Shown here piece after piece: positions 36,617-50,138 of a DNA stretch of 50,275 nucleotides (position 1 is the stretch's first letter; each line of letters opens with the position of its first letter). A program made the position numbers and the translations under genes. The notes beneath the pieces are model-generated. The model was not told the origin of the DNA, did no database searches, and saw nothing but the letters and a program-made list of their open reading frames with translations. Source of the DNA: Nitrospirota bacterium (GTDB lineage Bacteria; Nitrospirota; Nitrospiria; SBBL01; JAADHI01); assembly GCA_029261195.1 (NCBI GenBank), contig JAJDBU010000066.1, forward strand, positions 1 through 50,275, read 5' to 3'.

Positions 36617-37096
36617 GTGATGATCTTGAAAGAGGTTTTAACCATAAGAGGTGTTGGGAAACGTGCCGGTATTTTTGCACTGCTCTTTTCCGTGCTGCTT
36701 CTGCCGATGCTGCATCGTCACCCGGGAATCGATCACGTGCATGGAAAAACGGAGGGGCATCAGCATCAAGCGGCTATTCATGCCGATTTCTTCCCCGATG
36801 CCACACACCGACATCATCACGATGATCATGAGCAACATGCAGGAGATCTAGATTTTTCAATCAATCCCTCTCACCATACGCTTTCGCAGATTGACTTTCA
36901 TTCCCTGCATGTCGGTCAATCTTTTCAATTTTCTTCATTCTTCAAAAAACAACTGATTGCCTTGGCTCAGGATTCGCCTGAGTTTTCTATCTTTCCAGAT
37001 TTTCAAAGGGGGACTTCTCTGCCTCAACATGCCCCCGCTCCACAAACATCCCGATTTTCACCGCCTTCACTGCGCGCGCCTCCATATTTCGCATAA
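36617..37096 (+). CDS. Exported His-rich protein at the head of the metal-export operon
   Basis: A 159-residue protein with an N-terminal hydrophobic segment (AGIFALLFSVLLLPML) followed by many histidines, for example HRHHHDDHEQH. The C terminus (SLRAPPYFA) resembles short proteins found beside Cus/Cnr-type efflux genes. Likely a periplasmic metal sponge or sensor. The GTG start at 36617 has an aaggtg ribosome site 10 nt upstream; an ATG is 3 nt later. It precedes the outer-membrane channel gene by 92 nt. Confidence 0.7.
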   Translation: MMILKEVLTIRGVGKRAGIFALLFSVLLLPMLHRHPGIDHVHGKTEGHQHQAAIHADFFPDATHRHHHDDHEQHAGDLDFSINPSHHTLSQIDFHSLHVGQSFQFSSFFKKQLIALAQDSPEFSIFPDFQRGTSLPQHAPAPQTSRFSPPSLRAPPYFA

Positions 37097-37188: not shown

Positions 37189-38592
37189 ATGCGTTTTAAT
37201 TCCATAATCGTTCTCGGCATTGTTCTGGCGACAGGAATTGCCGGGTGTATCACTCAGCATAAAAATATTGCGGCCCAAGACACCCCGACTTTTCGACCAC
37301 AGGCAAGACCGGAAGCGATGGTGGAAACACGGCCGTCATTTGAGGAATCCAGAGAGGAAGCCAGCGGCGAGATGACTTTAAAAAAAGCTGTCGCTCTGGC
37401 GCTACGCCACAACCCGGAACTAAAGTCTTTTTCATGGGCGGTGCGCGCCCGTGAGGCAGGCACACTTCAATCCAGTCTAAGACCAAATCCGGAATTTGGA
37501 ATCAACATCGAAAATGTCGCGGGATCAGGTGCCTTTAGCGGCGCAGATCAGGCGGAAACAACCATCGCATTGAGTCAGGTGATAGAGCTTGACGCAAAGC
37601 GTAAGGCCAGAACACAGGTTGCGACCATGCAGCAGGACCTGAGCGCCTGGGATCAAGAGATCAAACGGATGGAAGTGCTCACCCGGGTTTCAAAGGCCTT
37701 CACCGCCGTCTTAAGTGCGCAAGAAGGCCTGAACTTGATTGAAGACCTTCTTGATATCGGGAGGCAAGTTGTCGAAACCGTCTCTGCAAGAGTCAAGGCC
37801 GGAAAGGCTTCTCCGGTTGAGGAAATTAAAGTCAAAGTCGCCCTGGCATCCACGCAAATTAAAGTTGAACGTGCCAAGCGGGCCTTAAAGATTTCCCGTA
37901 AAAATCTGGCAGCAACATGGGGAGATGCCAAAGCGCGATTTGAGCGGGTCCTAGGTCAGCTCGCTTCCGTTTCTGAACTCCCCTCTCAAGACAAATTGCT
38001 GCGAGGTCTGGCACAAAATCCGGAACTCGCCCGCTGGGCGGTTGAAATTTCCAGCCGTCAGGCGGTCATCGCAGTGGAGAAAAGTAAAGCCATTCCAAAC
38101 CTGACCCTCAGTGGCGGACTACGAAGTTTAAGCGGGCCGGACGACAATGTTTTTGTTGTGGGGCTTTCTTTCCCTTTGAGCTTGATGAACCGGAATCAGG
38201 GCGGGATTTTGGAAGCGCGTTATGAACTTGCAGAAGTGGAAGAAAAGCGCCGCGCAGCAGAAATACGAATGAATACAGCGCTTGCAGATGCCTATAACAC
38301 TCTGGCGACGGCACATGACGCGCTGACTGCGCTACAGCTCAAGGTCTTGCCCGGAGCACAAGGTACTTTTGATGCGGTCAATGCGGGCTATCGTTTAGGG
38401 AAATTCAGCCTGATTGATGTGCTGGATGCACAGCGGACGATTTCTGATGCAAAAGTGCAACATCTGGAAGCGCTGACAGATTATCATCTGGCCATTGCCG
38501 ATTTGGAACGATTGATCGGAGGGTCGATTTCGCCTGAACCGATAGGCGCTGACCTGGATATCACGAATGAGCTTAAAGGGGGAATGCAATGA
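37189..38592 (+). CDS. Outer-membrane efflux channel, TolC/CzcC family
   Basis: The 467-residue protein begins with a lipoprotein signal (GIAGC lipobox, Cys near residue 19). Two TolC-like repeats are seen, with LALRHNPEL in the first and the end LIDVLDAQRTISDAKVQHLE in the second. It forms the outer-membrane duct of a tripartite metal exporter. Its stop overlaps the start of the adaptor gene (ATGA). Ribosome site acggaggaa is strong. Confidence 0.93.
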   Translation: MRFNSIIVLGIVLATGIAGCITQHKNIAAQDTPTFRPQARPEAMVETRPSFEESREEASGEMTLKKAVALALRHNPELKSFSWAVRAREAGTLQSSLRPNPEFGINIENVAGSGAFSGADQAETTIALSQVIELDAKRKARTQVATMQQDLSAWDQEIKRMEVLTRVSKAFTAVLSAQEGLNLIEDLLDIGRQVVETVSARVKAGKASPVEEIKVKVALASTQIKVERAKRALKISRKNLAATWGDAKARFERVLGQLASVSELPSQDKLLRGLAQNPELARWAVEISSRQAVIAVEKSKAIPNLTLSGGLRSLSGPDDNVFVVGLSFPLSLMNRNQGGILEARYELAEVEEKRRAAEIRMNTALADAYNTLATAHDALTALQLKVLPGAQGTFDAVNAGYRLGKFSLIDVLDAQRTISDAKVQHLEALTDYHLAIADLERLIGGSISPEPIGADLDITNELKGGMQ

Positions 38593-39806
38593 ACAATAAG
38601 CAAAAGATTATTTTAACTGGTTTATTCTCGCTGTTTATTGTTTCAGTGGGTACAGCCGATCCGGTCAAAAGCGCCGAGCCGCCTCTGGTCATGACCCTGA
38701 CAGACGCAGTGATTTCAAATGCGCAAATCACGCTTGAAGTTGCAGGTGCGCTTCAAATACAAAGTGGCTTAAGTTTTCCGGGACAGGTGAAGCTGAACAT
38801 CGAAAAGGTGGCGCAGGTTGTGCCCAGGCTTTCCGGTGTGGTAACGGAGATCCGCAAAAAACTCGGGGATAAGGTCAAAAAGAATGAAGTCATTGTCATC
38901 ATTGAAAGCCGTGAGTTGGCCAATGCAAAAAGTGACTATATCGAAGCCGTGAACCGGCTTAAGTTCGCCCAGGTTGCTTTTGCGAGAGAAGAAGCACTGC
39001 AAAAGCAGAAAATCTCTGCAAAAGAGGACTATCTCGCCAGCCGCCGCGCTTTACAAGAAGCGGAACTGGAACAATTCGTCACTGAGCATAATTTGCTCGC
39101 GCTGGGTCTGAATGCCAAGGAACTGGCAAAGCTCGTGACGACGTCGAAGGGGGAAAAAGGTCGCATCATCGTTTCCGGTCAGTCCTTAACACGATATGAG
39201 GTGCGTGCCCCGGTTGATGGCATTGTGATTGAGAAGGATGTCATGCTGGGTAAGGCCGTGGATGGAAAAATGCCACTTTTTGTCTTGGCCGATATGTCTT
39301 CGGTCTGGGTGGATGCCAAGGTACAGGCCAAGGATTTGAGTCGGCTCAAGACGGGTCAAAAGGCAAGAGTGACATCAAAAAACGCAGGCTTGGGGGCACA
39401 GGGCGAGGTGATCCATGTCGGATCACGCTTCGACGAAACAACCCAGATGGGGATGGTTCGCCTGGAGATTCAAAACCCGCTTGAAAGCCCGAAGGGACAA
39501 TGGCGACCCGGGCTCTTTGCCACGGTCGATCTAAGCCAACAAGCGGTTGCAGCCGATGTGGCTGTCTCTGTGGATGCGATACAGCTCATCGGGGATCGCA
39601 GCGTGCTCTTTGTTCAAATTGGAAAGCGTTTTGAACTGCGTCCCGTCACACTGGGTCTTTCCGACGGGCGTATGGTCGAAATTCTGGAAGGTCTTTCCGG
39701 TGGAGAACAGGTTGTAACCCAAAACAGTTTTGTTATCAAAGCCGAGTGGCTGAACCAGGGCGGTGAACTGCCGGGAACTGATGCAGCAGAAGGAGGCCCG
39801 CAATGA
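38589..39806 (+). CDS. RND efflux periplasmic adaptor, CzcB/CusB family
   Basis: A 405-residue membrane-fusion protein with a signal peptide ending near VKSAE. The lipoyl-like half (RLSGVVTEIRKKLGDKV) and a coiled-coil hairpin (about 105-170) are followed by barrel domains (RYEVRAPVDGIVIEKDV). It links pump and channel in the periplasm. Overlaps both neighbours by 4 nt. Confidence 0.93.
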   Translation: MNNKQKIILTGLFSLFIVSVGTADPVKSAEPPLVMTLTDAVISNAQITLEVAGALQIQSGLSFPGQVKLNIEKVAQVVPRLSGVVTEIRKKLGDKVKKNEVIVIIESRELANAKSDYIEAVNRLKFAQVAFAREEALQKQKISAKEDYLASRRALQEAELEQFVTEHNLLALGLNAKELAKLVTTSKGEKGRIIVSGQSLTRYEVRAPVDGIVIEKDVMLGKAVDGKMPLFVLADMSSVWVDAKVQAKDLSRLKTGQKARVTSKNAGLGAQGEVIHVGSRFDETTQMGMVRLEIQNPLESPKGQWRPGLFATVDLSQQAVAADVAVSVDAIQLIGDRSVLFVQIGKRFELRPVTLGLSDGRMVEILEGLSGGEQVVTQNSFVIKAEWLNQGGELPGTDAAEGGPQ

Positions 39807-42800
39807 TTGCCAATCTCATTCGTTTTGTTTTAACGCAGCGGCTGATGGTGCTGGTGACGGCTTTAGGGCTTTCAGGCGCAGGAGCCTGGGCATTTTTTCA
39901 GTTGCCCATCGATGCTTTTCCTGATGTTTCATCACCTCAAGTGGTCGTCATTGTGAAAGCGCCCGGCATGGCCCCCTTGGAAGTGGAGCGACGGATTACC
40001 CGCTTAATTGAGGTCGAGGTGAATGGCATCCCGAAACAAACGGTGCTGCGATCCCTGACCAAGTATGCACTTTCTTCCATCACTATTGATTTTGAAGAAG
40101 GGACCGACATCTATTGGGCACGGCAGCAGGTTTCTGAACGACTGAATCAAGTTTGGAGCAGTCTGCCTGCCGGAGTGGAGGCCGGACTTGCACCGATTAC
40201 CACACCTCTGGGTGAAGCCTATATGTTCATGGTCGAGGGGGAGGGGCATTCCAATATTGAACTCCGTGGTTTGCTCGATTGGGTGATCCGCCCTCGACTG
40301 CTCTCTGTAGAAGGCGTGGCCGATGTGAATGCCCTGGGCGGTGAAGTCAGAAGTTATCACGTCACACCGGACCCGGAAGCCTTATTGGCGATGGATCTGA
40401 ATATCGGTGATCTGGAAAAAGCCCTGGAGAACAACAACCGCAATGCCGGTGGAGACCGGGTGGTCAGAAATAATGAGGTCTTACTGGTGCGCACAGTCGG
40501 CCAACTCACCTCTGGCAAGGACATCAAAAATATCACGGTCACAACACGGGATGGCCAGCCCATCCATATCAAAGATCTTGCGACGGTTAAGATCGGAGCG
40601 CTCACCCGTTATGGTGGCGTAACCAAGAACGGTGAAGGGGAATTTGTAGAAGGCATCGTCCTAAACCGGATGGGGGCCAATGCCAGCAAGACCGTCGAAG
40701 GAATTAAAACGGCTCTGAAGGAAATCGAAAAGAGCCTGCCCGCCGGTGTGAAAATTGTCCCTTTTTATGACCGAACCGACTTAGTCAATACCGCAATCGG
40801 GACGGTACAGAATGCCCTGGGTGCGGCCTTTGTTCTGGTGGTCATCGTGCTAATTGTTTTTCTAGGGTACATGCGCGGGGCCATTACGGTTGCAACGATC
40901 CTGCCCTTGAGCATCTTGTTGACTTTTATCCCGATGTATCTTGGTGGAGTCTCGGCCAACCTGATGTCACTGGGGGGGCTGGCCATTGCCATCGGGGTGC
41001 TGGTCGATCCTGCAGTCGTTGTCGTGGAAAACATCCAAACCCACCTCGCACGCCGTTTAAAGGGGGTTGATCCGCTGCACATTGTTTACCGTGCGGTGCT
41101 TGAAGTAGCACAGCCTGTTGTTTCCGGGACGCTGATTATCATCGTGGTTTTTCTCCCTCTGCTCAGTTTGAGCGGTCTTGAAGGAAAACTCTTCACGCCG
41201 CTTGCGCTCACCATCACCTTGGCTTTAGCCGTTTCGATGTTGATCGCACTCACGGTCATCCCCGTTCTGGCCAGTTTTTTGATGAAGCGCGGCCCCGCAA
41301 AAGAAAATGGCTTGATCGAAAGTTTGAAAGGCATTCATCGTCCAATAGTCGCCTTTTCACTCAAACATCGCTTACTGGCGGTGGGCTTTTCCGTCTTGCT
41401 TTTAGCTGGAGCCCTCGCCCTTTATCCTAAGATCGGCAAGGAATTCATGCCGGTTTTGGATGAAGGCCTGACGGTCGTCATTGTCGAAAAGCTGCCAAGT
41501 ATTTCGCTCGAACGCTCCCTCGAAATAGACGGAGATATCCAGAAGGCCTTAATGACCCTGCCTGAAGTCGAAGGCGTGGCCGCCCGGATGGGCTCTGACG
41601 AACTGCGTTTAGATCCGATGGGCCTTTATCAAACGGATAACTTCCTCCTGACCAAGCCCCGCTCTGAGTGGACGGTAGATGGTCCGGCGGAGCTTGAAGT
41701 GAAAATACGGGAGATCCTTGATCAGTTTCCGGGGATTGTTTATGCCTTTACGCAACCGATTGACATGCGTGTTTCGGAGATGTTGACGGGTGTGCGGGCT
41801 GCCCTTGCCGTGAAACTCTACGGGGAAGATCTGGCTTTGCTTGAGGAAACCGCAAAACAGATCGAAGCCATTGTGGCTGAAATTCCCGGCAGTGTTGATC
41901 TTTTCCGGACAGACATTACCGGTCAGCGCTACCTGGAAGTGCGACTGCGCTCGGAAGTCATGAGCCGTTTCGGCATCAACACCGAGGACATCAACACACT
42001 GATCAGCACCGCCGTGGGCGGCACGGTGGTGACTGAGGTGCAGGAAGGTGTCCGGCGAACGCCCGTCTTGCTGAGATATCCTGAAACCATGCGGAACAGC
42101 GCAGAGGCCATCGGCAATATCCTGGTGGAAACACCCACAGGGAACAAAGTCCCGATCAGTCTCCTGGCGGATATTGTGGATGTGGATGGCCCGGTTCAGG
42201 TCGTTCATGAAGGGGTATTGCGGCAGGTTGTGATTCAGACGAACCTCGAAGGCAGGGATATTGTCGGTTTTGTTGATGAAATCAGGGCGGCCATTGATGA
42301 AAAAATAACGCTTCCGCCCGGATTTTTTGTGGAATTTGGAGGCCAGTTTGAAAATCAGCAGCGCGCGGCAAAGCGTTTGGCAATTGTCGTTCCCATCGCC
42401 ATTGCGCTCATTTTTCTCTTTTTATTCACCACCTTCAATTCCATTCGGCAAGCAGGGCTCATCATCCTGAATATTCCCTTCGCCATGATCGGCGGGATCG
42501 TTGCCTTGTATCTCTCGGGTTTCTATCTTTCGGTACCGGCCTCTGTGGGTTTTATTGCACTCTTTGGCATGGCGATTATGAACGGCATTGTGATGGTCAG
42601 CTATTTTAATCAGCTTAGAGAGGAAGGACGGACGCTTCATCAAGCCGTGCTTCAGGGTGCAGAACGGCGACTGCGACCCGTGCTCATGACGGCGATTACA
42701 ACCGGTCTGGGCTTGATCCCCTTGCTGCTTGCGACGGGACCGGGTTCTGAACTGCAAAAACCCCTGGCGATTGTGGTGATCGGAGGCCTTTTGACCTCTA

Positions 42801-42979
42801 CACTTTTAACATTGGTATTGCTGCCGACACTATACGCCTGGTTTGAAGCAGGTAGCGAAGTCACAAGAACGGCAAAGAAGACAAAAAGCGTAAAAAGAGA
42901 GGCAATAAAGGAAGTCGAAATGGAGGAAATGGCTGATGAAATGTTTGACGCTGATCGTCGCAGCATCCGCGAAGCGTGA
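39803..42979 (+). CDS. Heavy-metal RND efflux pump (CzcA/CusA-type)
   Basis: This 1058-residue proton-driven pump exports divalent or monovalent metal ions. Twelve membrane helices and two large periplasmic loops are present; the TM4 motif reads AIGVLVDPAVVVVEN. CzcA-type pumps have DFG at the start of this motif, which is absent; CusA-like Met residues are only partly present (a Met in SEMLTG, none at GGTVVTE). The metal therefore cannot be named. The final ~50 residues are charged. It overlaps the DUF3240 gene by 44 nt. Confidence 0.93.
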   Translation: MIANLIRFVLTQRLMVLVTALGLSGAGAWAFFQLPIDAFPDVSSPQVVVIVKAPGMAPLEVERRITRLIEVEVNGIPKQTVLRSLTKYALSSITIDFEEGTDIYWARQQVSERLNQVWSSLPAGVEAGLAPITTPLGEAYMFMVEGEGHSNIELRGLLDWVIRPRLLSVEGVADVNALGGEVRSYHVTPDPEALLAMDLNIGDLEKALENNNRNAGGDRVVRNNEVLLVRTVGQLTSGKDIKNITVTTRDGQPIHIKDLATVKIGALTRYGGVTKNGEGEFVEGIVLNRMGANASKTVEGIKTALKEIEKSLPAGVKIVPFYDRTDLVNTAIGTVQNALGAAFVLVVIVLIVFLGYMRGAITVATILPLSILLTFIPMYLGGVSANLMSLGGLAIAIGVLVDPAVVVVENIQTHLARRLKGVDPLHIVYRAVLEVAQPVVSGTLIIIVVFLPLLSLSGLEGKLFTPLALTITLALAVSMLIALTVIPVLASFLMKRGPAKENGLIESLKGIHRPIVAFSLKHRLLAVGFSVLLLAGALALYPKIGKEFMPVLDEGLTVVIVEKLPSISLERSLEIDGDIQKALMTLPEVEGVAARMGSDELRLDPMGLYQTDNFLLTKPRSEWTVDGPAELEVKIREILDQFPGIVYAFTQPIDMRVSEMLTGVRAALAVKLYGEDLALLEETAKQIEAIVAEIPGSVDLFRTDITGQRYLEVRLRSEVMSRFGINTEDINTLISTAVGGTVVTEVQEGVRRTPVLLRYPETMRNSAEAIGNILVETPTGNKVPISLLADIVDVDGPVQVVHEGVLRQVVIQTNLEGRDIVGFVDEIRAAIDEKITLPPGFFVEFGGQFENQQRAAKRLAIVVPIAIALIFLFLFTTFNSIRQAGLIILNIPFAMIGGIVALYLSGFYLSVPASVGFIALFGMAIMNGIVMVSYFNQLREEGRTLHQAVLQGAERRLRPVLMTAITTGLGLIPLLLATGPGSELQKPLAIVVIGGLLTSTLLTLVLLPTLYAWFEAGSEVTRTAKKTKSVKREAIKEVEMEEMADEMFDADRRSIREA

Positions 42980-43256
42980 CTTAGCGGATAAGCTCAGAAA
43001 TATTGAGGAAGTCGAAGGTTTTACGATTCTTCCCTGTGAAGGACATTCCACCGAGACCCGGCATGATGTCTTTCAAAGCGTTCGGGACCGGGTGGTCGGT
43101 TATGTTCCCCGGGTGCGTGTGGATATCATTCTGGAGGATGTGCATGCCAACTGCGTTATTGAAGCGCTCAAGGAAAGCTTCCTTACAGATGATGCGGATC
43201 GCGCCCGAATCGGGATCTGGTTTGTGACAGACATTCAGGCGTCTGGCGAAATATAA
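42936..43256 (+). CDS. PII/CutA-like protein, DUF3240 type
   Basis: The 106-residue protein has the ferredoxin-like PII pattern (MKCLTLIVA at start, GFTILPCEGHST, VRVDIILEDV, ARIGIWFVTDI). Small proteins of this kind accompany heavy-metal RND genes and may sense metal or nucleotide and regulate the pump. It begins inside the pump gene in another frame, with ggagg about 9 nt upstream, so translation is likely coupled. Partner contact with the pump is inference. Confidence 0.8.
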   Translation: MKCLTLIVAASAKRDLADKLRNIEEVEGFTILPCEGHSTETRHDVFQSVRDRVVGYVPRVRVDIILEDVHANCVIEALKESFLTDDADRARIGIWFVTDIQASGEI

Positions 43257-43269
43257 TATGGAGATTAGA

Positions 43270-44061
43270 ATGAAGTTTAAGAACTTGAAAATCACGGCAG
43301 GCATGTTTGTCCTGCTACTCATCCCCGGCATCGCATTAGCACACGGTATTTCTGAATCGGATAAAGCGGCTCTCTTGAGCGGGGGCTATCTTCAGTATCT
43401 CTGGCTGGGTGCGAGCCACATGCTCACCGGATATGATCACCTGCTTTTTATCTTTGGTGTCATTTTCTTTTTGACTGGCTTCCGGGATATTGTTAAATAC
43501 ATCACCATCTTTACGGTAGGGCACAGTTTGACGCTCGTCTTTGCCACAATATTGGGCATCACGGCCAATTATTTTTTGGTCGATGCCGTGATTGCACTGA
43601 GTGTCTGTTACAAGGGATTTGATAATCTGGACGGCTTCAGGAAATATCTAAAAATGCCTTCGCCCAATCTCTTGTGGGTTATTTTTGGTTTCGGCTTGAT
43701 TCACGGCTTTGGCCTTTCCACAAGACTTCAGCAATTGCCTTTGGGAGAAACGGGTCTGATCATGCGCATCCTTTCTTTTAATGTCGGCGTCGAATTAGGG
43801 CAGGTTACGGCTCTGAGTGTCATGCTGATTTTGATTGCGGGTTGGAGACGCACCCGGTCATTTGTTCAATTCAGCACGGTTTCCAATGCCGGACTGATTG
43901 CAGCGGGGGCATTTTTATTTTTGATGCAAATGCACGGATATGTCCACACGACCGATCCGGATGGTTTCGGGTTTAGTGCGGACAATCATTTTCATGAACA
44001 TATCAAGATGGAAGAAAAAATCTTAGAGGATCAAAGAAGCCAGCACGACTCAATTTTTTGA
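43270..44061 (+). CDS. HupE/UreJ-family membrane protein
   Basis: A 263-residue membrane protein with a signal peptide (ends ALA-HG), then GYDHLLFIFGVIFF and GHSLTL, which are HupE/UreJ_2 hallmarks, and several helices. HupE/UreJ proteins move nickel or cobalt across membranes; here, beside a metal exporter, direction is unclear. The C terminus is His-rich (DNHFHEH). ATG 43270 is chosen over ATG 43258 because ggag lies 6 nt before it. Confidence 0.9.
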   Translation: MKFKNLKITAGMFVLLLIPGIALAHGISESDKAALLSGGYLQYLWLGASHMLTGYDHLLFIFGVIFFLTGFRDIVKYITIFTVGHSLTLVFATILGITANYFLVDAVIALSVCYKGFDNLDGFRKYLKMPSPNLLWVIFGFGLIHGFGLSTRLQQLPLGETGLIMRILSFNVGVELGQVTALSVMLILIAGWRRTRSFVQFSTVSNAGLIAAGAFLFLMQMHGYVHTTDPDGFGFSADNHFHEHIKMEEKILEDQRSQHDSIF

Positions 44062-44084
44062 GTCACTATTTCAAGGAGAATACA

Positions 44085-44432
44085 ATGAAAAAGTTATCGA
44101 TCTGTTTGCTGATTTTATTTTCACTTTCGACCCCATTGGCCTATGGCGACGAGGGACACGACCACGGTAATGCGCCTTCTGAACCCATTTCAAAGATTAA
44201 GGCAGGGGAAAAAGCCGCTGAGTTTGTGAAGAACTTTAGCAAAAAAGGAAAGCTGGAGGAATCCTGGGCAACGCTTCAAGCGGCCACCGTTGAACAAAAG
44301 ACCTTTAAAAAAGGCCCGGAATGGGTGGTCACCTTTAATAATCCCCAGGTGGAAAACAAAGACAAGCAGACTTTGTACGTCTTCCTCTCCCTGTCGGGAA
44401 ATTTTTTGGGCGCGAACTTTTCAGGGAATTAG
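44085..44432 (+). CDS. Small exported protein, DUF6488-like
   Basis: The 115-residue protein has a signal peptide (ends YGDEG) and a short His-rich start DEGHDHGN, followed by a compact domain (PEWVVTFNNPQ, TLYVFLSLSGNFLGANFSG). It resembles small proteins found next to metal RND operons. The frame runs upstream to 44058, but ATG 44085 has an aaggag ribosome site. A periplasmic metal-linked role is likely but unproved. Confidence 0.75.
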   Translation: MKKLSICLLILFSLSTPLAYGDEGHDHGNAPSEPISKIKAGEKAAEFVKNFSKKGKLEESWATLQAATVEQKTFKKGPEWVVTFNNPQVENKDKQTLYVFLSLSGNFLGANFSGN

Positions 44433-44596: not shown

Positions 44597-44944
44597 ATGT
44601 CCCTTATTCAATTCGCAGATAAAAAGTTTGTTCTGCCTGCACTTGTGGCCTCGATTGTACTGTTGCTTTGTCCCGTCGATCATCTCATCCCGAGGGCCGA
44701 AGTCTCTGCACACAGCGAAACCGCTTTAGCCGAATGTATGCCGGATGTTTGCGTAACGCTCGGATCTAAAAAAACTGTATCACAGGAAAGAAGCCCTCAG
44801 GCGAAGCTTTTACCCCTGCCTGCCTCTCCTTTCATCCCTTTTAGTTTGCAAACCGAAGCCTTCCGTTTTACGACTATTGGTGATAGTGCTCCGCCACCGA
44901 CCTTGAGCAAGCTTTACCAAGTTCATGCAACATATCTGATCTGA
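44597..44944 (+). CDS. Small exported protein of the metal cluster
   Basis: A 115-residue protein with a hydrophobic N-terminal segment (ALVASIVLLLCPV) and a C terminus (PPPTLSKLYQVHATYLI) like that of short proteins beside copper and other metal operons. No known domain is seen. The ATG is at the expected transcription start of the promoter at 44562-44590. Confidence 0.6.
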   Translation: MSLIQFADKKFVLPALVASIVLLLCPVDHLIPRAEVSAHSETALAECMPDVCVTLGSKKTVSQERSPQAKLLPLPASPFIPFSLQTEAFRFTTIGDSAPPPTLSKLYQVHATYLI

Positions 44945-45064: not shown

Positions 45065-46495
45065 ATGTCAATGAAACAATCAGGAAACCTGTTTGAATTT
45101 TATTTAAAAATCGTCACTCTTTTCTTTCTAGTCGGCTTGATCACTCTCCTTAGCTCATTTCCCGCAGAGGCGATTCCGGCTTTTTCCCGGAAATACGACA
45201 TGAGCTGTACCTCCTGCCACACCAAGCCGCCAAGGCTGAATGCCTTTGGGGAAGCCTTTCATATGTCGGGATATCAAATTCCTCAAACAACGGAAGGCGA
45301 GCTTCGAAAGAAACGCCAAATCGGACGGATCCATTCCGAGATCGAAGTGCTGAATATCTTTGCACTCCGGGCGACGGGTAATTTCGCCGAGTCTTTCTCC
45401 GGTGGTAATCCTGTCGAAACGAACCTGGCCTTGCCGCGAGAAATTGAACTCTATTTTGGCGGCACCTTTACCGATGACATTAGCTATTTTTTCAACCTGG
45501 CCCACGAGACAAAGGTGATTGAAGGGAGCGACCCCACTGATACTCATCGCTATGGTCATTTCAAGGAGAAGTCTGAATTCGGACTCGGCAAGGAATTTTT
45601 CCTCATGTTTGATCTAAATGCTTCTCTCTTCGGGACGCCGTCCGGAGCAATGAGCAAGGCCATGATTATGGGACCGATGCTTATGGTCGGTAAGGTTGAC
45701 CCTTCGACTAATTTTTCTTATTCGACCAACAGGCAATTTGTCATCAATGCCCCGGGACGCCTTGACAAAGACACAGGGCATATTCAGCGATTTACCCTTA
45801 CTCCCTATGCCTTTGCCTCAAAATTTTTTGGACTGACGAAGGGCGACGGCAAGTCACTCGAAGTCACACGATCGGTTCTTTACAATTCGGCCGGAGATTT
45901 TGGACTTGATATCCATGCCATGATTGCAGGGAAATATATGATTCAAACAGGCATTATGCAGGGTATTGAAGCAGGGACTTCAGATGTCAATGAAAAAAAA
46001 GACCCCTATGTAATGGCACGAATAAATTTTGGAGGCACGCACTATTTTTCCGGCTCTGTCTCAGGATTACTTAACTGGGGAAACGATACGGCGATGTTGG
46101 ATAAGCACTTAATCGACTGGTTCCGCTATGGATTTGCAGGCAACCTGAAATACAAATTACTCGACATTTACGGAGCGATTATCTGGGATAAACTCAGCGG
46201 CCTGCCTTCAAACACTGCCGCGACTTTTGATGATACTGCGATGGGTTTCACGATCGAAGGTGATTTGCTTGTTACTGATCAACACCTTCTATCCCTTCGC
46301 TATGACCATATGATATCGGGAGGCAGGATTAGGGACAAAGCGGACGGTAAAGTCCTGACCTTCCAGCTGAGAAAATACTATCGGGACAACTTTGCCATTT
46401 TTATCCGCGATAGTGTGAATGTCGAAAGAGTCAGCGATAATCCACTTCAGAATTTCCGGAATTTGATCGCAGTCGGCATTGATATCGACTTTTGA
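45065..46495 (+). CDS. Fused monohaem cytochrome c - outer-membrane barrel (Cyc2-like architecture)
   Basis: The 476-residue protein has a signal peptide (ends AEA-IPAF), then one haem site CTSCH in the segment PAFSRKYDMSCTSCH followed by PRLNAFGEAFHMSGY. The remaining ~400 residues have alternating strands with aromatic ends typical of a porin, ending in IDF. This matches Cyc2-like proteins, in which an N-terminal haem is tucked into an outer-membrane barrel for extracellular electron transfer, for example Fe(II) oxidation. Which substrate is used here is unknown. Ribosome site gcggagaa is seen. It lies 12 nt upstream of a dihaem cytochrome gene. Confidence 0.8.
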   Translation: MSMKQSGNLFEFYLKIVTLFFLVGLITLLSSFPAEAIPAFSRKYDMSCTSCHTKPPRLNAFGEAFHMSGYQIPQTTEGELRKKRQIGRIHSEIEVLNIFALRATGNFAESFSGGNPVETNLALPREIELYFGGTFTDDISYFFNLAHETKVIEGSDPTDTHRYGHFKEKSEFGLGKEFFLMFDLNASLFGTPSGAMSKAMIMGPMLMVGKVDPSTNFSYSTNRQFVINAPGRLDKDTGHIQRFTLTPYAFASKFFGLTKGDGKSLEVTRSVLYNSAGDFGLDIHAMIAGKYMIQTGIMQGIEAGTSDVNEKKDPYVMARINFGGTHYFSGSVSGLLNWGNDTAMLDKHLIDWFRYGFAGNLKYKLLDIYGAIIWDKLSGLPSNTAATFDDTAMGFTIEGDLLVTDQHLLSLRYDHMISGGRIRDKADGKVLTFQLRKYYRDNFAIFIRDSVNVERVSDNPLQNFRNLIAVGIDIDF

Positions 46496-46507
46496 AAGGA
46501 GAACGAC

Positions 46508-47368
46508 ATGGATGATACAAAAAGTCTCTTTAAACAAACCGGCCTTTTGATTTTCGGTATTCTGTTTCTTTCCTCAAGTCCGGTTCAATCACAAGTGATG
46601 GATCATTCCTCTATGAATATGGAGGAGAATGAAATGAAGGACAGGGACAAAACAGATCGCATGAAAGACATACAGAATATGGGAGACATGAAGCATACTG
46701 ACACGATGGCTGTCATGAAAGGAAAGATGATTTTCCAGATGAGTTGTTTTTTATGTCACGGCAGAAAGGGAGAAGGGGATGGCCCTGTTTCGATGTTTAT
46801 CGGCCCTTATTCCCACCCGAGACCCAACAACTTCACTTCCGGCATCTTTAAGTTCCGTTCGACCGAGTCGGGTGACCTCCCCATGTTGACAGACCTGATG
46901 CGAACCATTCGTGAAGGCATTCCCGGCTACATGCCCTCTTTCCGGAATCTAGGTGAAGACGGCATCAAGTCCGTGGCGATGTACATCGCAAAAGAATTCA
47001 TCCAGGAAGAGTTGCCAACCACGACAACGATCAAGTATGTCAAACATCATGGGCCCTATACCTATTCGGCCAAAAGTGCCTGGCGAGGCAGTCTGCTTTT
47101 TAAAATCATGAAGTGCAATGAATGCCATGGAAATGACGGTAAGGCCGGACGCATGGACCTGAAGGATGAACGAAGTCTCATGATTCACCCGGTTGATCTC
47201 ACCCGCCAGGAAACCTTCGGAAATGGAACCTCTCACGAAGATATCTACCGAACGATCATGACCGGACTTGATGGGACCCCCATGCCCGGTTACAACGATT
47301 CCTTTGCAGGAGAAGAAGAGAGCGCCTGGGATTTAGTGCACTTTATCCTTTCGCTCCAAGGGCGATAG
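46508..47368 (+). CDS. Exported dihaem cytochrome c with Met-rich N terminus
   Basis: The 286-residue protein has a signal peptide (ends near SSPVQS), a Met/His-rich region (about residues 30-75, including MDHSSMNMEENEM) that could bind Cu(I) or Ag, and two haem sites, CFLCHG (GRKGEGDGP) and CNECHG (NDGKAGRMD). Each domain looks like a class I cytochrome c. It probably carries electrons in the periplasm to or from the haem-barrel encoded immediately upstream. aaagga ribosome site is clear. Confidence 0.88.
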   Translation: MDDTKSLFKQTGLLIFGILFLSSSPVQSQVMDHSSMNMEENEMKDRDKTDRMKDIQNMGDMKHTDTMAVMKGKMIFQMSCFLCHGRKGEGDGPVSMFIGPYSHPRPNNFTSGIFKFRSTESGDLPMLTDLMRTIREGIPGYMPSFRNLGEDGIKSVAMYIAKEFIQEELPTTTTIKYVKHHGPYTYSAKSAWRGSLLFKIMKCNECHGNDGKAGRMDLKDERSLMIHPVDLTRQETFGNGTSHEDIYRTIMTGLDGTPMPGYNDSFAGEEESAWDLVHFILSLQGR

Positions 47369-47377
47369 GATAGGTAA

Positions 47378-48016
47378 ATGAGTTTAATGCGACAGGAAAA
47401 TGATTTCCTTCAGGCGAAATACGGCATCACCGCCTGGTGTTACGACATCCTGGACTACCCCTGGGAGCGACAGTATCGAAGGTGGCGACCCGAATTACTG
47501 AAGGACATCCGTGGTGAAGTCCTTGAAGCGGGGGTCGGAACCGGAAGGAATCTGAAGTACTATCGCCCGGATGTCCATTTGACCGGGATTGATTTAAGTC
47601 CTGCCATGTTGAAGCGAGCGAAAAAGCGCGCCGGAGATGCCCAATGTCAGGTCAGTCTTAAGCAGGAAGATGCGACGCTGTTGTCCTCAATTCCGTCGAA
47701 TCAGTTCGATTGGATCTTCTCAACCTTCATCTGCTGCGTCATGCCCGACCCCTTGCAGCCGATGGCGATAGCGCAGTTCGGCCGGGTGCTGAAGCCGGGA
47801 GGGCGTTTTCGATTACTCGAAATGATCTATTCACAAAATCCGAAAGAACGGAAAAAACAGGAACTTTTTGCTCCTTTTGTTGAAAAGGTTTTTGGTGCCC
47901 GTTTTGACCGGAACACCCTGAGCTACCTACATGAATCAGACAGGCTGAAAGTCACCAACACGACTTTTTTAAAAAAAGATATCTACCTGCTTATGGAGGG
48001 TGTCTGTGAAAAGTAG
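47378..48016 (+). CDS. Class I SAM-dependent methyltransferase
   Basis: The 212-residue enzyme has motif I EAGVGTGRNL, acidic strand GIDLSPAML and motif IV-like DWIFSTFICCVM, of the UbiE/COQ5-like fold. The substrate is unknown: quinone, small molecule or metalloid are possible. It lies 9 nt after the dihaem cytochrome gene, so probably the last gene of that unit. Confidence 0.85.
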   Translation: MSLMRQENDFLQAKYGITAWCYDILDYPWERQYRRWRPELLKDIRGEVLEAGVGTGRNLKYYRPDVHLTGIDLSPAMLKRAKKRAGDAQCQVSLKQEDATLLSSIPSNQFDWIFSTFICCVMPDPLQPMAIAQFGRVLKPGGRFRLLEMIYSQNPKERKKQELFAPFVEKVFGARFDRNTLSYLHESDRLKVTNTTFLKKDIYLLMEGVCEK

Positions 48017-49703: not shown

Positions 49704-50138
49704 TGATCCTCCCCTAAAAAAGTGGACTTGGAGTAAAGTCGTTGGTATTAAAACGACTGGAGGTTCAGATGAGTGTTCAAGGCAGAAGAAAATACGATCC
49801 GGAATTTAAAAGAAACGCAGTTCGCCTGAGTGAAGAAGCAGGCCGAACAGTTCACAAGGTTGCGGAGAACTTAGGTGTAGGCAGTGCGTTGATCTATCGT
49901 TGGCGGCAGCAAGAGCGAGAGCATTCTGAACTTGCCTTTCCTGGAGCTGGGAAAATGGCGTTGACTCAAGATCAAAAACGGATTCGAGCATTAGAAAAGC
50001 AACTGAAAGATACGGAAATGGAAAGAGATGTATTAAAAAAGCCCTGACCATCTTCAGCAGGATATCGAAATGAGATACAAGTTTATTGAGAAGCACCGCT
50101 CCTCATTTCCGATAAAGAAGATGTGCCGCGCCTTTAAA
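49704..50138 (+). mobile_element. IS3-family insertion sequence, 5' part only
   Basis: The left end begins about 49704 with tgatcctcccctaaaaaagt, typical of IS3 family terminal repeats. orfA and the start of orfB follow. The element appears to be interrupted near 50138 by another IS end. Confidence 0.8.
49769..50047 (+). pseudogene. IS3-family transposase OrfA, frameshifted near its end
   Basis: A 92-residue protein with HTH (KYDPEFKRNAVRL, VAENLGVGSALIYRW) and a leucine-rich coiled coil (ALEKQLKDTEMERDVLKK). ATG 49769 has ggagg upstream. It stops after LKKP, but one extra A in the six-A run would give LKKALTIFSRISK and end at 50071-50073, overlapping the ATG of orfB as usual. So a 1-nt loss, or a programmed slip, is implied. 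Confidence 0.8.

Follow-up and report, generated by a model that had tools for sequence, protein, structure and literature searches.

Pairs of a heme-plugged pore and an electron carrier are known mainly from iron oxidation, and homologues of the cytochrome-porin Cyc2 are widely used as iron-oxidation markers (FeGenie). The Cyc2 proteins that have been biochemically characterized oxidize Fe(II) (PMC8406198). The family is defined by the motif AXPXFAR[Q/K][T/Y] preceding a single CXXCH site, a PXL motif about four residues downstream of that site, a length of at least 365 amino acids and a 16-strand porin, for which OprO and OprP are the named templates (Keffer 2021, PMC8406198). In Acidithiobacillus, cyc2 is followed by a diheme cytochrome gene at the start of the rus operon (PMC10654088). 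A role of Cyc2 together with PCC in Mn(II) oxidation has been proposed for Troglogloeales/Ca. Manganitrophaceae (PMC9040806), and Cyc2 was also reported, and tied to Mn(II), in SBBL01 metagenome-assembled genomes (MAGs) from a tunnel (PMC11442690). Copper resistance has been discussed for a different architecture, i.e., the porin-multicopper oxidase system PcoAB/CopAB (PMC5566968). Text searches of open-access papers returned five in which Cyc2 and copper resistance both occur, but no description of a linkage of Cyc2-like genes to copper export.

The window, i.e., the whole stretch of 50,275 nucleotides analyzed here, is contig C63 of the 3.04-Mb, 99%-complete genome of an uncultured Nitrospirota bacterium, whose order also includes records named Ca. 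Troglogloeales. The genomes used for comparison include MAGs and were taken with their given statistics for contamination and binning. The pair of interest consists of a gene for a fused cytochrome-porin and, beginning 13 bp after it, a gene for a diheme cytochrome c; both are found in the list of open reading frames (ORFs), at 45065-46495 and 46508-47368, within the positions given by the first-pass annotation (45065-47368). The relevant features of the window, all on the forward (+) strand, are the following:

37189-38592, +, TolC-like outer-membrane factor (OEP) of an HME-RND exporter, IhpA-like, below the cut-off of that model (profile search)
38589-39806, +, periplasmic adaptor (MFP), CzcB/IhpB-like (profile search)
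39803-42979, +, CusA/CzcA-family heavy-metal RND permease (TIGR00914, alignment with CusA)
42936-43256, +, P-II-like DUF3240 protein of the RND operon (Pfam; same neighbor in L090)
43258-44061, +, HupE/UreJ_2 family membrane protein of the RND operon (Pfam; same neighbor in L090)
44076-44432, +, DUF6488 small secreted protein (Pfam)
44597-44944, +, 115-aa secreted or membrane small protein, conserved immediate upstream neighbor of the pair (alignment A4)
45065-46495, +, Cyc2-like fused monoheme cytochrome-porin, 476 aa, predicted outer-membrane electron-transfer pore (ORF, Cyc2 motif, alignment A1, tree, models and porin matches)
45170-45238, +, Cyc2 signature and heme site AIPAFSRKY-DMS-CTSCH-TKP-PRL, residues 36-58 (direct reading; motif definition from PMC8406198)
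45677-45685, +, clade-specific Met pair M205/M207 in the barrel (comparison with Cyc2-like relatives)
46508-47368, +, CcoP-like diheme cytochrome c, 286 aa, predicted to accept electrons from the cytochrome-porin in the periplasm (ORF, domain matches, conserved adjacency)
46595-46723, +, Met/His-rich N-terminal segment of the diheme protein (MDHSSMNM...), candidate Cu(I)/Ag(I)-binding tail (sequence, orthologues)
47378-48016, +, class I methyltransferase, 10 bp 3' of the pair, not a conserved neighbor (domain match, comparison of loci)

A promoter and terminator scan at the pair gave no more than expected by chance. Close to the end of the contig an IS3-type TnpA-like ORF (49742-50047) is cut, which suggests a mobile element at the assembly break.

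The product of the first gene begins with a signal peptide, followed by AIPAFSRKYDMSCTSCHTKPPRL, which holds the single CxxCH, and then by the β-barrel. Upstream of the heme site the sequence AIPAFSRKY is the Cyc2 motif with one A to S change; members of the clade mostly have AIPAFARKY exactly, and the orthologues carry AIPAFARKY/H or one-residue variants. The PXL motif follows in CTSCH-TKP-PRL, where P56, R57 and L58 are invariant in alignment A1, and the length of 476 aa, including the heme site, lies above the 365 aa of the definition. Two AlphaFold2 models, based on alignments of 11-12 sequences, display about 16 strands at low confidence (pLDDT 53, pTM 0.57-0.59), and their top fold matches are all porins: Foldseek points to OmpC/OmpF types, and VIA yields Z values of 19.4 to Omp32, 18.8 to OprO (4rjw) and 18.4 to OprP (2o4v). 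Searches by sequence gave 0 matches in Pfam, NCBIfam or the PDB, as expected because the Cyc2 family has no such models. The assignment of the first gene to Cyc2-type fused cytochrome-porins is confirmed, for the motifs by sequence and for the predicted barrel by the low-confidence model.

The second gene product contains two CxxCH sites within two Cytochrome_CBB3/Cytochrom_C stretches (Pfam). Its first heme is preceded by the Met/His-rich segment QVMDHSSMNMEENEM..., and MDHSxM opens the mature protein in 6/6 orthologues of family f1; other members of the clade have shorter Met/His tails, which are absent in Nitrospira. Met/His motifs of the MDHSxM type occur in CopA/PcoA and CopB. Both gene assignments of the first-pass annotation, i.e., a Cyc2 layout with one CxxCH directly before a porin-like barrel and a diheme cytochrome c with a Met/His-rich N terminus, therefore stand, and the structure prediction that it had proposed as a check of the barrel agrees at the low confidence of the model. 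The window genome also encodes an orphan one-heme relative of the diheme cytochrome (G000:C50:1109-1798, L086), with 67% identity over half of the protein.

Two rather different functions may be considered at this point. The first is that of an ordinary Cyc2-like Fe or Mn oxidase with its periplasmic diheme carrier, where the metal-export genes nearby merely mark a metal-rich island. The Cyc2 motif and barrel of the window protein fit this chief rival to our own reading, as does the order of cyc2 and a diheme cytochrome gene in Acidithiobacillus (PMC10654088) and the Mn(II) oxidation proposed for Cyc2 with PCC in Troglogloeales (PMC9040806), with Cyc2 reported in the tunnel SBBL01 MAGs (PMC11442690). 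The second is a respiratory electron route, with copper-protein carriers and cbb3-type oxidases, where copper ATPases would supply copper to these enzymes rather than serve detoxification. The diheme protein is indeed CcoP-like; its match in Sinorhizobium falls at the C-terminal end of a cbb3 subunit II protein, whose gene cluster also contains genes for SCO and a P-type ATPase.

Essentially all orthologues with sufficient flanking sequence retain the two-gene order, the diheme gene following the cytochrome-porin gene in each locus that is long enough, i.e., the order is more than chance. Orthologues with 50-79% identity are found in the Nitrospiria families f1, f3, f4, f5, f7 and f10, and in a draw of 400 genomes of the phylum no match at E 1e-60 came from outside the class. 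OFTM MAGs, probably from the tunnel study (PMC11442690), account for three of the orthologous loci. Both genes are also present in a sister clade in Nitrospira, at 28-34% and 36-45% identity. In a tree of Nitrospirota-internal sequences, the two pair clades (each 100/100) group together and are separated from the remaining Cyc2-like paralogues, among them those in the larger f2 genomes; the deep order is uncertain because several branches are long. Relatives of the pair on plasmids amounted to weak, partial matches only. The search in relatives suggested by the earlier annotation has thus revealed that the module is conserved in Nitrospirota of the Ca. Troglogloeales type and that Nitrospira has a more distant version of it. 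In the 4-5 Mb genomes of family f2, which belong to the same order, only distant Cyc2-like paralogues are found and the pair is absent, which argues against an ordinary Fe or Mn oxidase.

Several observations concern the surroundings of the pair. The 115-aa protein, which has an invariant C(x4)C and a C-terminal LYxLH (alignment A4) and no Pfam or NCBIfam match, is encoded directly upstream of the cytochrome-porin in the window (44597-44944) and at L003:3228-3590, L007:9465-9821 and L057:8762-9124; it is possibly a leader or regulator. One genome (G034) harbors a second complete pair (G034:C40, L054/L089). In Nitrospira (L059-L070, e.g., L060:7121-13058), the pair forms a conserved cluster with a CarboxypepD_reg/cupredoxin-like gene, present near the pair in 11/11 loci and most often followed by genes for large hybrid histidine kinases; this arrangement recalls cyc2-cyc1-cup of the rus operon.

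A complete HME-RND operon (37189-44432) precedes the pair in the window. It encodes OEP, MFP, RND, P-II-like DUF3240, HupE and DUF6488 proteins, and its permease (39803-42979) scores 1027 bits to TIGR00914 (cut-off 701). The pair had been described as directly following this export cluster. The cluster is indeed upstream, separated from the pair by the DUF6488 gene and the 115-aa ORF (44597-44944), but it is not a conserved partner: orthologues of the permease are located on contigs other than that of the pair in G034, G032, G008 and G027 (88-91%), and also on a contig without the pair in G002 (67%). A conserved RND-pair operon is thereby ruled out, and the adjacency is specific to the window genome. 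The permease has V, Q and E in the columns of the CusA Met triad (M573/M623/M672) in an alignment with CusA, and it displays neither this triad nor the DFG motif of CzcA; a CusA-like metal specificity was rejected for lack of the triad. The same RND operon, with a small leader gene of its own, is found in L090-L092. In every orthologous copy seen, a His-rich secreted protein of 150-165 aa that resembles CzcI-type leader proteins is encoded ahead of the operon (window 36617-37096; L090:10665-11126; L091:4417-4914; L092:4730-5191). At L074:6548-14064 (G006:C3), the gene for an RND permease with 52% identity to that of the window is found about 3 kb away from a different, distantly related Cyc2-like gene.

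It might be argued that the module acts on a divalent metal (e.g., Zn, Co, Ni, Cd) that the neighboring RND system handles, and is unrelated to copper, given that this system directly adjoins the pair in the window and that its adaptor and outer-membrane subunits score best, below cut-off, to the divalent-metal exporters IhpB/IhpA. The location of the RND orthologues on other contigs speaks against such a link, and Zn, Cd and Ni have no redox activity under these conditions, which would leave an electron-transfer module without a substrate. We consider this idea barely credible.

Instead, the relatives share a Cu(+)-type P1B ATPase as the conserved export partner, with a CusA-like RND in addition in one locus (L004). 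A Cu-type P1B ATPase is located within 4 kb of the pair in 7/14 genomes (G008, G013, G027, G034, G002, G023, G039) and at 14-19 kb in two more, with only about 1-4 copies of such ATPases per genome. In a simple placement model that assumes random positions, 0.13 genomes would be expected against the 7 observed (P ~1e-11), and the count by family, 4/6, gives P ~1e-6. Because the linked ATPases are of three distinct types (YHS/HMBD, YHS-YHS and HMA), the association is not that of one inherited synteny block. The four linked ATPases that were scanned (L003, L009, L013, L057) exceed the TIGR01511 cut-off and have CPC and MxxSS motifs. In the stretches fetched, mostly ±5-8 kb, a Cu-type ATPase was found near 0/11 Nitrospira pairs and 0/~22 other Cyc2-like loci, and in the window genome none is linked to the pair. 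In L003 and L005, the genes of the pair share one strand, with short gaps, with those for a MerR regulator, a His-rich cytochrome and the ATPase; L004 has the CusA-like RND upstream of the pair and the ATPase downstream. Regulation of the CueR type was rejected, as the MerR neighbor in the relatives scores above none of the cut-offs and resembles the MerR/ZntR models more than that of CueR.

The earlier idea that metal export is combined with outer-membrane electron transfer consequently finds its counterpart in the Cu-type ATPases near the pair in relatives, though not in the adjacent RND system, which is not part of the module. Metal-resistance genes cluster in islands, so neighbors need not share a pathway. 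Still, an ordinary Fe or Mn oxidase does not predict linkage to three types of Cu-ATPase with none at other Cyc2-like loci. As to copper supply for respiratory enzymes, it accords with the cupredoxin-like genes that follow the pair in L004 and L006 and with the CarboxypepD_reg/cupredoxin-like gene at the Nitrospira pairs; however, the domains of the linked ATPases (YHS/HMBD or HMA) are those typical of exporters, their best-scoring match is CopA, L004 also contains the CusA-like RND, and supply leaves Met residues in an outer-membrane pore unexplained. A role in copper supply thus appears improbable.

These Met residues are a distinctive trait of the clade. The Met content of the cytochrome-porin is 3.6% (range 2.7-4.6) in the clade, compared to 1.5% in the Nitrospira pairs and 1.4% in other paralogues, and the number of highly conserved Met residues is 7 compared to 1 and 0, respectively. 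In the core of the diheme protein, the Met content is 3.3-5.6% in the clade versus 0.9-2.8%, the other genes of the loci averaging about 2.3-3.0%. Enrichment in both proteins is limited to the Troglogloeales-type pair clade. Residue M207 stands where nearly all other Cyc2-like relatives have Lys or Arg, M286 where Nitrospira has Arg, and M205 is found within a small insertion; further conserved Met and His residues are H66, M67, M181, H284, M286, M298 and M317. The charged residues at the places of M207 and M286 in relatives suggest a position in the lumen, which is deduced from this replacement pattern only because the barrel model is of low confidence (pLDDT 53). A high Met content is not proof of copper binding. 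Nevertheless, an ordinary Fe or Mn oxidase predicts neither Met in place of Arg/Lys in the pore nor that both proteins are rich in Met solely in the clade linked to Cu-ATPases, and we regard that reading as a serious contender, though not the favored one.

Classical copper-oxidation proteins were rarely detected in the genomes that were compared. The outer-membrane protein CopB/PcoB (PF05275) was found in 0/13 genomes and a multicopper oxidase of CueO/PcoA size in 1/13 (G047); the others have forms of about 300-340 aa or about 1650 aa, sizes being taken from open frames. Because the Cyc2 fusion layout and motif, the conserved pairing with a diheme acceptor, the recurrent Cu-ATPase linkage and the clade-specific Met enrichment are all seen at the level of sequence, the simplest account is that of an electron-transfer pair of the outer membrane that responds to Cu(I)/Ag(I). 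We give a probability of roughly 45% to the reading that the pair is a Cyc2-family variant for a soft metal, probably engaged in respiratory Cu(I) oxidation or detoxification. The metals originally listed, i.e., Cu, Ag, Fe or Mn, are by inference only narrowed to Cu and Ag.

In this proposed mechanism, a 16-strand porin would be plugged from the periplasm by its monoheme cytochrome, and the pair of the Troglogloeales-type clade would be specialized for a soft metal, Cu(I) (or Ag(I)) being the most likely one. Copper would be exported by the P1B ATPase, while in the window genome the metal may possibly be reached via the RND system. The exported copper would bind to Met and His residues of the pore and the diheme tail, the plug heme would oxidize Cu(I) to Cu(II), which is less toxic, and the electron would be passed by the CcoP-like diheme cytochrome c toward a terminal oxidase (cbb3-type) and respired. 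The pair would then do with heme what the PcoAB/CueO multicopper oxidases do with copper. The metal, its oxidation, the passage of electrons in the direction of a cbb3-type oxidase, detoxification and the benefit to the cell are all parts that we infer. A more far-reaching version, where a respiratory Cu(I)-oxidizing cytochrome-porin, a Met-retooled Cyc2 pore, detoxifies or even gains energy from Cu(I) and replaces multicopper oxidases in Troglogloeales-type Nitrospirota, is doubtful.

If the soft-metal reading is true, in these genomes a Cyc2 match would be no evidence of lithotrophy on Fe or Mn, and a heme protein would do a job so far assigned to multicopper oxidases. The case is testable, and the residues M205, M207 and M286 as well as the MDHSxM tail offer precise targets.

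A comparison with known systems places the pair closest to the Cyc2 family (Cyt572 of Leptospirillum, Cyc2 of Acidithiobacillus, Mariprofundus), with which the cytochrome-porin shares the signal peptide, the single CxxCH, AxPxFAR[QK][TY], PxL and the porin of about 16 strands, and the gene of a diheme carrier follows as in cyc2-cyc1. Unlike in known Cyc2 proteins, Met and His replace Arg and Lys in the barrel of this clade, the diheme partner is Met-enriched with an MDHSxM tail, and the pair is linked to Cu-type P1B ATPases rather than to cox/rus genes. The Cyc2 homologues of Ca. Manganitrophaceae/SBBL01 are Cyc2-like monoheme porins from the same bacterial order (PMC9040806, PMC11442690), but they are proposed to act on Mn(II), and the family f2 genomes studied here hold other, distant Cyc2-like paralogues. 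With CusCBA/CzcCBA/Ihp, the RND permease of the window shares a score above the TIGR00914 cut-off but neither the CusA Met triad nor the CzcA DFG motif, and its operon adds genes for P-II-like, HupE and DUF6488 accessory proteins. The MtrAB/MtoAB/PCC conduits also transfer electrons across the outer membrane via a barrel, but in these a separate multiheme cytochrome is inserted in a 26-strand barrel, while the window protein has one heme fused to a small barrel. The logic proposed here, i.e., an outer-membrane barrel combined with Cu(I) oxidation, is shared with PcoAB/CopAB (outer-membrane CopB and multicopper oxidase CopA), where a multicopper oxidase is used in the place that heme would take in the cytochrome-porin pair.
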